A stretch of 64,000 nucleotides of DNA from Leptolyngbya sp. Heron Island J (GTDB taxonomy: Bacteria; Cyanobacteriota; Cyanobacteriia; Phormidesmidales; Phormidesmidaceae). A program made the position numbers and the translations under genes. Position 1 is the stretch's first letter; the number at the start of each line of letters is the position of its first letter. Below are positions 1,050-53,038 of the stretch, one piece after another. Where the stretch lies: contig NZ_AWNH01000005.1 in the NCBI RefSeq assembly GCF_000482245.1, forward strand, positions 1 through 64,000, read 5' to 3'. Under the pieces are notes generated by a model. It did not search any database. It saw only the letters and a program-made list of their open reading frames with translations, and had not been told where the DNA came from.

Positions 1050-1134
1050 GGGTCGTTGCCCGAGTGGTTAATGGGGGCGGACTGTAAATCCGCTGGCTAC
1101 GCCTACGTTGGTTCGAATCCAACACGGCCCACCA
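1050..1134 (+). tRNA. tRNA-Tyr (GTA)
   Basis: Class II tRNA with a long variable arm. The acceptor stem GGGTCGT pairs with ACGGCCC, with one G-T pair. The anticodon GTA is at 1084-1086, and the T-arm GTTGG-TTCGAAT-CCAAC is intact. The genome encodes the CCA at 1132-1134. It is followed 3 bases later by tRNA-Thr, a pairing common in cyanobacteria. Confidence 0.97.
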
Positions 1135-1137
1135 CCA

Positions 1138-1209
<72 letters not shown>

Positions 1210-1234
1210 TTGCAATGTAAGGCATCCAGCGTTT

Positions 1235-35256: not shown

Positions 35257-35661
35257 ATGAAAAAGCGCGTTACCCTGACATTTCCAAAACAGACGGTGAA
35301 TATGCCAATCACCTATCGATTGGCTAAGGATTTCAACGTAGCAGCCAATATTATTCGCGCCCAGGTAGCACCTAATCAGGTAGGAAAAGGTGTAATCGAA
35401 CTATCTGGTGATATTGATCAACTAGATGAAGCAATAGAGTGGATGCGTAACCAGGGGATTGGCGTTTCCCTATCCAGCCGCGAAATTTTGATTGATGAAG
35501 ATCTATGCGTTCACTGCGGGCTGTGTACTGGGGTCTGTCCAACGACAGCACTGAGGTTAGACCCCGATAGCTTCAAGCTAGTTTTTAATCGGGCCCAGTG
35601 CATTGTCTGTGAGCAATGTATTCCGACCTGCCCGGTACAAGCAATTTCAACTAACCTCTGA
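35257..35661 (+). CDS. NIL-domain 4Fe-4S ferredoxin
   Basis: 134 residues. Residues 1-70 form a NIL domain (KRVTLTFPKQTVNMPITYRL, ending in VSLSSREI). Residues 75-130 form a dicluster 4Fe-4S ferredoxin with CVHCGLCTGVCPTTAL and CIVCEQCIPTCPVQAI. Such proteins link sulfur or methionine metabolism-type NIL sensors to electron transfer; the cyanobacterial homologue is known as a nitrate- or sulfur-related ferredoxin. The precise partner is unknown. The next gene follows at 9 bases, so they are co-transcribed. Confidence 0.93.
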   Translation: MKKRVTLTFPKQTVNMPITYRLAKDFNVAANIIRAQVAPNQVGKGVIELSGDIDQLDEAIEWMRNQGIGVSLSSREILIDEDLCVHCGLCTGVCPTTALRLDPDSFKLVFNRAQCIVCEQCIPTCPVQAISTNL

Positions 35662-35669
35662 AGGCCCTG

Positions 35670-36134
35670 ATGAAGCAATTACCCTGGCTATCATCATTAC
35701 TGTTACTCCTGGCCTACATGGGGTTTGGTGCTTTTTTGCATTCTCGGCACAGCCCTGACTTTATGTGGTGGCTAGCCTTGGGCTATGCCGTACTTGAAGC
35801 GGCGTTACTAACTATTGTTTGGAAGCCCTTACGTAACTTCTTTTTACTTGGGTTTCAATCCGATGTGGGCTATACGGTTATGGCCTTGGTGCTTGCTTCT
35901 CTCGCTGTAGTGATAGTTTCCTGGATTCAGATTTTCATTTACTTCCTGGTAATGCTGGCGGCAGCCCTATTACTACGGGTAGAACTCTTAATTCGCAATG
36001 TCGGGAACAATTTGGCCTTTGTCACAATCCTTTTGCTGTCCCTAATGGGGTTAGGACTGAGTCGGGTAACGACAGAACTAGTGATGACACTTAGGCCAAC
36101 AGTACAGGCTGTAATAAGCCTATGGACACTATAG
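35670..36134 (+). CDS. Four-helix membrane protein of unknown function
   Basis: 154 residues with four hydrophobic segments (about 5-25, 33-53, 67-92, 98-125) and few charged residues: LLLLLAYMGFGAFLHS, MALVLASLAVVIVSWIQIFIY, LVMLAAALLLRVE. It follows the NIL ferredoxin by 9 bases. The promoter of the first tandem small-RNA unit appears to overlap its last codons (TATAGG at 36130-36135). Function unknown. Confidence 0.75.
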   Translation: MKQLPWLSSLLLLLAYMGFGAFLHSRHSPDFMWWLALGYAVLEAALLTIVWKPLRNFFLLGFQSDVGYTVMALVLASLAVVIVSWIQIFIYFLVMLAAALLLRVELLIRNVGNNLAFVTILLLSLMGLGLSRVTTELVMTLRPTVQAVISLWTL

Positions 36135-36247
36135 GAATCGGCATAGGCCAAACCGCGTAGGTTTTCTTTTAGGTGATGCTAATGAAAGCACAAGCGTTTA
36201 ACTGTTGCCCCTACCTCGTGAACTTCAGGTTCTCGGGGTACTTTTTT
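36121..36247 (+). ncRNA. Tandem small-RNA unit 1
   Basis: TATGGACACTATAGGAATCG (-10-like TATAGG) opens the unit. A variable part follows, then the invariant AATGAAAGCACAAGCGTTTA continuing through ACTGTTGCCCC (36181-36211), and a terminator hairpin ACCTCGTGAAC/GTTCTCGGGGT with TTTTTT at 36242-36247. No reading frame is shared between units. The 3' two thirds is identical or nearly so in four copies, so a family of small RNAs is inferred. It resembles in layout the multi-copy Yfr2/Cyano-1 RNAs, but I cannot verify the family. Confidence 0.75.
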
Positions 36248-36323
36248 GTTTATTTTACTTTCAACAAATAGAAATAGAAAGCCAGTGAGCCATACACCGT
36301 AACAAACTTAACGATGATGAAGT

Positions 36324-36450
36324 TATGGACGCTGCAGAAATCGGCACAAAAATTACCGTTTAGCCAGCTTCCTGAGCGATGCTAATGAAAGCACAAGCGT
36401 TTAACTGTTGCCCCTACCTCGTGAACTTCAGGTTTGCGAGGTACTTTCTT
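36324..36450 (+). ncRNA. Tandem small-RNA unit 2
   Basis: It opens with TATGGACGCTGCAGAAATCG, where the TATAGG is lost, so the promoter may differ. The invariant block is at 36384-36414. Its terminator stem is TACCTCG/CGAGGTA, then TTTC. The stem differs from unit 1 at two positions by paired changes (CGGGGT to CGAGGT), which restores Watson-Crick pairing. Confidence 0.7.
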
Positions 36451-36599
36451 ATTTAAAGGAAAACGATTCAATTTTAGGTGAGTTTAACATTAACTAACCC
36501 ACTAGAACCGATTAACTTCACTAAGCGACAACTATGAGTGGTAGATGCACTGTATGCGTATAATAGCGCACATAGCTGCTCCCCAGGCTGTAAATAAAT

Positions 36600-36727
36600 T
36601 ATGGACACTATAGGAATCGGCATAGGCCAAATCGCGTAGATAGGTTTTTTAAGCGAATCTAATGAAAGCACAAGCGTTTAACTGTTGCCCCTACCTCGTG
36701 AACTTCAGGTTCTCGGGGTACTTTTTT
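36600..36727 (+). ncRNA. Tandem small-RNA unit 3
   Basis: The first 45 bases match unit 1 almost exactly (TATGGACACTATAGGAATCG, GCATAGGCCAAA). The invariant block is at 36661-36691 and the terminator is identical to unit 1, with TTTTTT at 36722-36727. Units 1 and 3 are probably recent duplicates. Confidence 0.75.
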
Positions 36728-36749
36728 ATCTAAAGCCTTTATTTACTAG

Positions 36750-36775
36750 CTGTTAGCTTCATCTGAAGCTAACAG
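36750..36775. repeat. Perfect 12-bp inverted repeat
   Basis: CTGTTAGCTTCA, TC, TGAAGCTAACAG, between units 3 and 4. No T-run. It may be a spacer structure or a small terminator. Confidence 0.7.
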
Positions 36776-36923
36776 TGTGATCAGTAAGCTGTGTTCAGTG
36801 CCCATATGTCTACGGTTGGCCTTGTTCAAGATGACCGGCCTTGGCTTGGTCAAGTGTCTTGGTATTCTAGAACCTGCTGTTGATGGTGCATTGCCAAAAC
36901 AACAGAGTCGAAAACCTTAGAAG

Positions 36924-37055
36924 TATGGACAATCTAAAAATCGACACAAAATGGAAGTGTCTAGCCGTTCTTCTGAGCGAATTTAGTGAAAGCACAAGCG
37001 TTTAACTGTTGCCCCTACCCTGTGAGACATCTTGGTGTTTCCGGGGTACTTTTTT
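36924..37055 (+). ncRNA. Tandem small-RNA unit 4 (diverged)
   Basis: TATGGACAATCTAAAAATCG, then the invariant block AGTGAAAGCACAAGCGTTTA continuing through ACTGTTGCCCC (36985-37015). The terminator is rewritten: ACCCTG-GAGAC paired with GTTTC-GGGGT, then TTTTTT at 37050-37055. Stem sequence differs but pairing is kept, a covariation that supports an RNA. Confidence 0.7.
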
Positions 37056-37133: not shown

Positions 37134-38033
37134 TTAGACTAAGCTGGTTGCCGCCTTCCTTTGCACCCATTCGGTAATCAGTGGATTCACCAGTTCGGGT
37201 GCTTCATCCTGGGGGCAATGACCCACTCCTTCGAGTGGTATAAATTGTTCGACGACGCTATGTTGACTGAGTTCCCGACCAAGTGCGATGGGTTCCCACG
37301 GATCGGCTTCACCCCACAGCATCAGTACCGGGCAGGTGAGCTGCGGCAACAAGTCTTCAGGTAGTGGTCCCTGGGAGTAACTGATAAATGCGATAAAGAC
37401 ATCTACCGCTGTGGGGTCGCAGGCAGGGGCCAGCAGTAGGTCAATGAGTTCGTCAGTGACGGCTTCCTTACGACCGTAGGCCTGACGCAGAACATTTTTT
37501 AGGGTTTTGGGCTTGGCTAGCCTTGAGAAAAAGAACTTGCCGATAGGCTTGTAGTTGAGGATAGCCTGGAGTAATGGTGTGGGCGCGCTGCGGTACCAGG
37601 GTAGGGTAGCGCGTTTGCGATCGTGGAGTAAGCGTAAAGAACAGTCCAGGACAATCAGACCTAGCACTTGGTCGGGGGCCATGGTGGCAGCTTGCATCGC
37701 GACGATGCAGCCAATGGAGTTGCCAACTAGAAAGATAGGCTCACCAATAATCTCTTGGCAGAAGTCAATAACCTGCTGGCCCCAGGTTTCGAAGGTGTAA
37801 TTGATGGGATCACCGGGGATGGGTTTCGCGGACTGACCATAGCCAATCAGGTCAATGGCGTAGACACGATGGGCCTGGCCCAGATCGGGCAGATTCTTTC
37901 GCCAGTGGTCACTGTGGGCTCCGAAACCATGGATCAGCAGTAGCGGTGGTCCTTGGAGCCCTGCAGTTTGATAACGAATAGGAAAGCCTTGCCAGGTCCA
38001 GAAGTGATTTTGTGTCGATGCTAGTTGAGTCAT
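37134..38033 (-). CDS. Alpha/beta hydrolase
   Basis: 299 residues. Oxyanion LLLIHGFGAHSDHWRKNL, nucleophile elbow FLVGNSIGCIVAMQAATMAP (Ser), Asp in VLMLWGEADPWEP and His in GVGHCPQDEAPE form the triad. Cytoplasmic, no signal peptide. It resembles the haloalkane-dehalogenase/chlorophyllase-like hydrolases common in cyanobacteria; the substrate is unknown. The tail faces the tandem small-RNA array. Confidence 0.92.
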   Translation of the reverse strand: MTQLASTQNHFWTWQGFPIRYQTAGLQGPPLLLIHGFGAHSDHWRKNLPDLGQAHRVYAIDLIGYGQSAKPIPGDPINYTFETWGQQVIDFCQEIIGEPIFLVGNSIGCIVAMQAATMAPDQVLGLIVLDCSLRLLHDRKRATLPWYRSAPTPLLQAILNYKPIGKFFFSRLAKPKTLKNVLRQAYGRKEAVTDELIDLLLAPACDPTAVDVFIAFISYSQGPLPEDLLPQLTCPVLMLWGEADPWEPIALGRELSQHSVVEQFIPLEGVGHCPQDEAPELVNPLITEWVQRKAATSLV

Positions 38034-52767: not shown

Positions 52768-52806
52768 TGGGCATGGGATGGGGAAACGGTGCTATGCTAG
52801 TAAATG

Positions 52807-52898
52807 ACTCGGATCTATGCGATCGCGACGCCCAAATCTTGTCAGGACCGGAAGGTAGCAGCAATACGGGATGCTTGTGATAGGCGTAGTCTCCGGGT
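52807..52898 (+). ncRNA. ffs: Signal recognition particle RNA (small type)
   Basis: 92 bases. Contains the universal SRP motif GTCAGGACCGGAAGGTAGCA (52841-52860). Ends pair: ACTCGGA (52807-52813) with TCCGGGT (52892-52898), then CTATGC with GCGTAG. It is the RNA core of the Ffh particle that targets membrane proteins. It contains a HIP1 octamer within its distal helix. It is followed by a T-rich stretch. Confidence 0.93.
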
Positions 52899-53038
52899 CT
52901 CTTGTGTTTTTATGGTGTATCCGCTCCACATCAGGTACGGCTATCCGACAGGTAAACGCGCTGCAAACTGTCTCGATCCGCTGTTAAAACGGAAAGTATG
53001 AGGTGACGTCACCCGATATTTTTGGAGGAGCATAGGTC

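Follow-up and report, generated by a model that had tools for sequence, protein, structure and literature searches.

Yfr2/Cyano-1 is a small RNA (sRNA) of cyanobacteria with a conserved unpaired element. Another short cyanobacterial sRNA, Yfr1, carries the fully conserved and presumably unpaired motif CACUCCUCACACC, as stated in the sections of PMC4734099 cited here. The same paper, a catalogue of Nostoc sRNAs, describes an unnamed sRNA of Nostoc PCC 7120, 4547237r, which is 51 nt in length, was verified by Northern blotting and is given there as exclusive to heterocystous strains. NsiR1, an RNA of about 60 nt, is encoded in 12 tandem copies with individual promoters, according to the part of PMC9045159 that deals with it. 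The locus reported here lies in a stretch of 64,000 nucleotides from Leptolyngbya sp. Heron Island J (hereafter the window), and consists of four tandem units which an earlier note, made from the sequence alone, had taken for a cluster of small-RNA genes similar in kind to Yfr2/Cyano-1. In layout the closest known system is NsiR1 (RF02399): as far as it is described in the cited source, it shares with the array a length of about 60 nt, a conserved 5' core, a terminator hairpin and tandem copies with promoters of their own. This likeness is one of layout, which on the side of the array is read from sequence, and the array sRNA differs from NsiR1 in its core, in the upstream sequence of the loci seen, in being mostly single copy and in leaving the NsiR1 model unmatched.

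When all 4227 families of Rfam 15, which we take to include Yfr1, Yfr2 and Cyano-1, were searched, none of them reached its gathering threshold on the units, and no family matched the sRNA in 20 related loci; at E ≤ 10 the array gave four matches, which belong to unrelated families and are all far under their cut-offs. Membership in Yfr2/Cyano-1 was rejected by these model searches, and the kinship proposed in the earlier note was given up: the array sRNA is likewise cyanobacterial and has a conserved core, but differs from Yfr2/Cyano-1 in having no Rfam match. It also differs from Yfr1, with which it shares no Rfam match either, since it reads AGCGUUUAACUGU and the motif CACUCCUCACACC is absent from the units. 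A literature search by the core sequence and sRNA family terms, with supplementary tables outside its reach, found no description of the RNA, and none such is named in the part of PMC3610870 that was available; it is likely that an unnamed entry for the family stands in a published start-site table. The RNA 4547237r, a small sRNA with few reads in the portion of its source cited above, is near in length to the prediction for members from family f32 (probably the Nostocaceae) and could be the Nostoc member of the array sRNA family. As judged from these searches, the array sRNA forms a new family that is absent from the catalogues, without a match in Rfam 15, though the kind of sRNA to which it belongs is known.

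The array spans positions 36124-37055 and is composed of four units, in each of which a common core precedes a hairpin and a T-rich tail (Table 1). The conserved blocks start at 36181, 36384, 36661 and 36985, as had been reported, and exact GAAAGCACAAGCGTTTAACTGTTGCCCC occurs 4 times in the window against 0 expected from 100 shuffles, which is far beyond chance. The 31-base block that had been called invariant is identical in three units, but unit 4 differs from it once (AGTGAAAG for AATGAAAG); the stretch without change in all four units is the 33-base TGAAAGCACAAGCGTTTAACTGTTGCCCCTACC of the unit alignment. The blocks are present as described, but the repeated part is larger than the earlier note had it, for each unit has a second conserved block 47-48 nt upstream of the core (starts at 36124, 36327, 36603 and 36927), which in the unit alignment reads TATGGAC...AATCGRCA. 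In the genome of the strain (8.06 Mb, with the array on contig C5) only these four copies were found at E ≤ 0.001.

Table 1. Features of the array and its flanks (positions in the window; -10-like elements and sRNA starts are predicted)
Feature	Position	Strand	Remarks
NIL-domain 4Fe-4S ferredoxin gene	35257..35661	+	Syntenic upstream neighbour
Small membrane-protein gene	35670..36134	+	Syntenic, directly upstream of array; no Pfam match, 'membrane' label from hydrophobic sequence
Unit 1 upstream box	36124..36145	+	12/13 consensus letters; overlaps stop codon of membrane-protein ORF
Unit 1 -10-like hexamer GATGCT	36175..36180	+	29 nt after box; assigned by the spacing rule
Unit 1 sRNA	36188..36247	+	Predicted start about 7 nt after -10; core AGCGTTTAACTGT 36193-36205; hairpin 36212-36240; T-run 36242-36247
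Unit 2 upstream box	36327..36348	+	12/13 consensus letters
Unit 2 -10-like hexamer GATGCT	36378..36383	+	29 nt after box
Unit 2 sRNA	36391..36450	+	Core 36396-36408; hairpin 36415-36443; interrupted T-rich tail
Unit 3 upstream box	36603..36624	+	12/13 consensus letters
Unit 3 -10-like hexamer GAATCT	36655..36660	+	30 nt after box; scorer favoured TCTAAT (36658-36663, spacer 33)
Unit 3 sRNA	36668..36727	+	Core 36673-36685; hairpin 36692-36720
Unit 4 upstream box	36927..36948	+	13/13 consensus letters
Unit 4 -10-like hexamer GAATTT	36979..36984	+	30 nt after box; scorer favoured TTTAGT (spacer 33)
Unit 4 sRNA	36992..37055	+	Longer inner stem; core 36997-37009; hairpin 37016-37048; T-run 37050-37055
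Alpha/beta-hydrolase gene	37134..38033	-	Convergent downstream neighbour

A hairpin with a T-rich tail follows the core in all four units, in agreement with the terminator that had been placed after each of them, but in unit 2 the tail has an interruption (CTTTCTT), and a simple terminator scan reported two of the four, namely units 2 and 4. Compared with shuffled sequences, units 1 and 3 had unremarkable folding energies (z -0.87 and -1.49) and units 2 and 4 had better ones (z -2.58 and -1.79); these modest single-unit z-scores count against reading the units as sRNA genes. Where the stem differs between units the pairing is indeed kept, but within the window the changes that had been called compensatory are mainly one-sided (U-G to U-A, G-C to G-U, plus the longer inner stem of unit 4), and two-sided compensation was seen in the comparison across genomes. 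In an alignment of 56 sequences, which was not model-fitted to structure and in which the structure tested was the alignment's own consensus, a choice that favours the hairpin, the nine hairpin pairs were formed in 92.4% of cells versus 79.6% after shuffling, and 92 cells were two-sided versus 22.5; on each of five measures none of 500 shuffles was as high. Versions of the hairpin slid along the alignment were lower on all five measures, their maxima (50.7% paired cells, 31 two-sided cells and a covariation score of 0.196) being clearly lower.

The 13-base core AGCGTTTAACTGT ahead of the hairpin is invariant in all 56 aligned sequences, most of which were obtained by searches requiring or favouring the core. 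Covariance-model searches, which do not require it, gave the core as AGTGCTTAACTGT or AGCGCTTAACTGT in most f32 loci seen and as AGCGCTTAACTGT in family f25. In an alignment of 38 sequences RNAalifold added a 5-pair helix around the core with almost no two-sided change; this helix is absent from the consensus of the 56 sequences, and folds of longer stretches pair the core with upstream sequence. On full single-strandedness of the core the alignment consensuses thus disagree, and the core may be partly paired.

When the relatives were searched with unit 1, matching arrays were found within the genus, and other members of the family gave shorter matches. The 23-base core, with up to 3 mismatches allowed, was found in 17 of 63 family genomes, every match being exact: all 8 genomes of the genus have 2-4 copies (in G007 a contig end truncates the array), and a single exact-core copy is present in 9 of the remaining 55. 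The same array is present in Leptolyngbya sp. PCC 7375 (L146), Adonisia turfae (L194), Leptothoe kymatousa (L177) and Leptolyngbya cf. ectocarpi (L160), and the genus of the window appears to be of the Leptothoe/Adonisia type. A named pattern scan returned 59 stretches, 53 of them titled cyanobacteria and 6 from other organisms. Two covariance models were employed, R1 from the 38-sequence alignment of the family and R2 with members from other families (56 sequences). R1 matched 87 of the 388 genomes of the class and R2 160 of them at E ≤ 0.01; at E ≤ 1e-6 R2 matched 120 of the 388, from 12 families by our own count of the table. The remaining 40 of the 160, above 1e-6, are mostly doubtful, except for a few in f32 and family f24. 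Two candidate loci were rejected, L223, where the weak model match covers a terminator only, and L098, where the R1 match belongs to an NsiR1-like gene. Outside the genus the sRNA is mostly single copy.

Upstream of the core lies a 22-bp box, GGACAN7AANCGNCACA. In unit 1 it covers the stop codon (36132-36134) of the membrane-protein gene, which bears out the earlier observation that the promoter of this unit overlaps the end of that gene. Scored with a consensus derived from part of the same loci, at least 10 of the 13 box letters were present within 150 nt upstream at 111 of the 124 core occurrences in the DNA fetched by then. Of the 13 occurrences without the box, 6 are in non-cyanobacterial stretches, whose score of 7/13 serves as a background, another 4 are stray matches to the core, and 3 belong to the second copies of tandem pairs. 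As a control the reversed box is of little use, for it has CACA-like stretches too and scores 12 in two loci. When the -10-like hexamer was located with a scorer of our own, 81 of 110 loci, many of them related, had it 29-31 nt after the box, versus a mean of 29.7 and a maximum of 40 in 300 shuffles; the other 29 loci fall outside this spacing. The standard deviation of the box-to-hexamer distance is 2.0, below all of 1000 permutations (minimum 3.1), and the distance from hexamer to core varies, mostly from 6 to 12. An exact search for the box in 59 genomes gave 20 sites, 17 of which are at the sRNA gene, and the reversed pattern gave 3 sites. In five non-family genomes (G041, G042, G051, G052 and G058) the box search and the R2 search coincide, and conservation drops to background within a few bases on either side of the box.

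The fixed spacing, the genome-wide box search, its coincidence with the covariance model and the sharp edges of the box argue that the box works with the promoter at the DNA level. The box seems to be reserved for the sRNA gene, and the fixed distance to the -10-like element suggests a box-bound activator that recruits RNA polymerase. A scan of the array with the sigma-70 consensus found no promoter. Sites of known regulators were rejected as an explanation of the box: in the 200 nt upstream at 99 thinned loci, the NtcA pattern GTAN8TAC occurred 2 times versus a shuffled mean of 5.0 and its relaxed form GTN10AC 53 versus 49.7, and the counts for HLR1-like (RpaB), Pho-box-like and LexA-like sites were 0 versus 0.0, 2 versus 2.6 and 0 versus 0.2, respectively. 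In L114, L120 and L163 a short second copy of the sRNA, with the core and a smaller hairpin, lies between 94 nt and about 0.5 kb behind the first; these second copies have no convincing box (8-9 of 13) and may be duplicates that are decaying or co-transcribed.

In the window the gene order is a thioredoxin-like gene (reverse), the NIL-domain ferredoxin gene, the small membrane-protein gene, the sRNA array and the alpha/beta-hydrolase gene (reverse). Elsewhere in the window Rfam and ARAGORN located an SRP small RNA at 52806-52902 (+) and a tRNA-Tyr/tRNA-Thr pair at 1050-1210 (+). By tblastn with nine neighbour proteins, at least one of them is kept in 78 of 109 loci, some of which are duplicated between collections. 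The membrane protein was found at 49 of the 109, a DUF4870 gene at 35, the ferredoxin at 34, the hydrolase at 33 (that in L221 being a distant paralogue elsewhere in the locus), prfC at 19 and hemB at 7; none of the queried neighbours is present at 31 loci, eight of them from f24. In L101 the membrane protein precedes the sRNA and DUF4870 and prfC follow it, and in L132 ferredoxin, membrane protein, hydrolase and prfC occur together. These mixed loci connect the arrangements and indicate that a large part of the family occupies a single inherited locus. The gene hemB adjoins the sRNA of f32 in 19 of 19 loci of one set and in 7 of the 8 genomes of the tblastn set.

We consider it probable that the array is a tandem of four separately transcribed sRNA genes of one family, whose 5' core pairs with mRNAs. 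The conserved core, the covarying terminators and the promoter-like element in front of each unit support the notion of a small-RNA gene cluster put forward in the earlier note. Each unit would comprise the 22-bp box and, some 30 bp beyond it, a -10-like element, and would yield an RNA of about 60 nt with a terminating hairpin. An activator on the box would recruit RNA polymerase, the transcript would start close to (GC)ACAAGCGUUUAACUGU, about 7 nt after the -10, and the covarying hairpin with its U-rich tail would end transcription. The 5' core, largely unpaired in this model, would most likely pair with mRNAs in trans, and the extra copies would increase the dose and allow the units to diverge.

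The position of unit 1 directly after the membrane-protein gene and the terminator-like hairpins would also suit cis-acting terminators, leaders or attenuators, or 3' ends of the membrane-protein gene. The hydrolase gene behind the array is convergent, and the array in the window is therefore not the leader of a following gene; the recognised downstream neighbours elsewhere, DUF4870, hydrolase and shikimate kinase, are convergent as well. In L117 and L218, however, the sRNA is followed at about 0.1 kb by an ORF of the same orientation, so that orientation alone is insufficient against a leader role everywhere, although by inspection these two ORFs are unrelated. Each unit has its own box and -10-like element, the upstream neighbour in f32 is the divergent hemB, and termination does not require four copies; a cis-acting role is accordingly rated as very improbable. 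Still less probable is that the units are genes of the NsiR1 type, the known tandem sRNA of heterocyst formers. The same layout of tandem units of about 60 nt with individual promoters (in the cited part of PMC9045159) speaks for this, as do the 7 matches at E ≤ 0.01 that the NsiR1 model has in the genome of the window (both of those listed are over the cut-off and on other contigs) and an 11-nt partial match to its core between units 2 and 3. Against it, RF02399 reached its cut-off of >39 bits nowhere in the window and had no match in the array even at E ≤ 10, so that NsiR1 membership was rejected; the NsiR1 consensus core UGGUAGAUGCACCCUGAU is absent from the units, whose core differs; and in L102 an NsiR1 match (2526-2581) lies about 0.4 kb from an array-type sRNA, the two being separate genes. 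The matches in L102 and elsewhere in the genome of the window indicate that the model works on such DNA. The partial match, GGTAGATGCAC at 36539-36549 (+), has no recognised terminator behind it and is found at the corresponding array position also in the genus members L006 and L008. That the units are a simple repeat or a mobile element with no function as RNA, which the near-identical tandem copies might suggest, has hardly any probability left: the array occupies one place per genome in the genus, the sRNA is mostly single copy elsewhere with conserved neighbours, the stem covaries, the promoter spacing is fixed, and copies at unrelated sites with target duplications were not seen.

The main rival to mRNA pairing is a role in protein binding, in which the sRNA would act as a decoy or sponge, with the near-invariant core as the protein site and the tandem copies multiplying the sites. 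It draws on the fact that the core is little changed over 12 families and yet no conserved mRNA complement was found. No conserved target emerged when 60 family genomes were searched for the complement of the core, allowing up to 2 mismatches, 8 genomes of the genus for the 13-mer complement, allowing up to 1 mismatch (21 of the matches listed being read in context), and 60 genomes for exact GGGGCAACAGTT (20 of the matches listed being read in context); among the sites read in context, those recurring in at least two genomes lie inside or antisense to ORFs and none at starts. GGGGCAACAGTT is commoner than its reversed control also in genera without this variant of the sRNA, and composition can therefore explain the excess. 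Single sites near ORF starts were observed in G007 (L329), where an ORF of 208 aa has an exact 13-nt complement immediately behind its start codon, in the genome of the window at distances of 18 and 5 nt upstream of predicted starts (L324 and L325), in L366 at about codon 22 of a gene which we take to be petC-like, and in G005 (L376) 30 nt before an ORF. Duplex energies at the 53 ORF starts of the window were no better for the core than for shuffled versions, 97 of 100 being at least as good. Protein binding would also fit the copy number, which rises in one genus while the core is unchanged. No candidate protein is at hand, however, the core is short and without a hairpin of its own in all clades, as is usual for seed regions, and f32 alters two of its letters. 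We therefore regard protein binding as unlikely, though worth keeping in mind, and prefer pairing of the 5' core with mRNAs.

Beyond this locus, we see an even chance that the array belongs to an undescribed regulatory RNA module of much of the filamentous cyanobacteria and Nostocales, with a dedicated activator and a single RNA output, as is implied by a box that occurs almost nowhere else in the genome, and with amplification to as many as four copies in the Leptothoe/Adonisia group. With its near-invariant core present in f32, for which 170 of 192 genomes gave a match at E ≤ 0.01, as well as in 11 other families, the sRNA is a strong candidate for a central regulatory role in the physiology of cyanobacteria, and with the arrangement of box plus sRNA both the activator and the targets should be directly findable. 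The array would be a second case, besides NsiR1, of tandem multiplication of a cyanobacterial sRNA, and as such useful for the question of why copy number grows. As for NsiR1 itself, RF02399 was over its cut-off in 79 of 95 genomes from the relatives of the window and the class, often several times per genome, and the lineages with this RNA, which is known from heterocyst formers, include some that are probably non-heterocystous.
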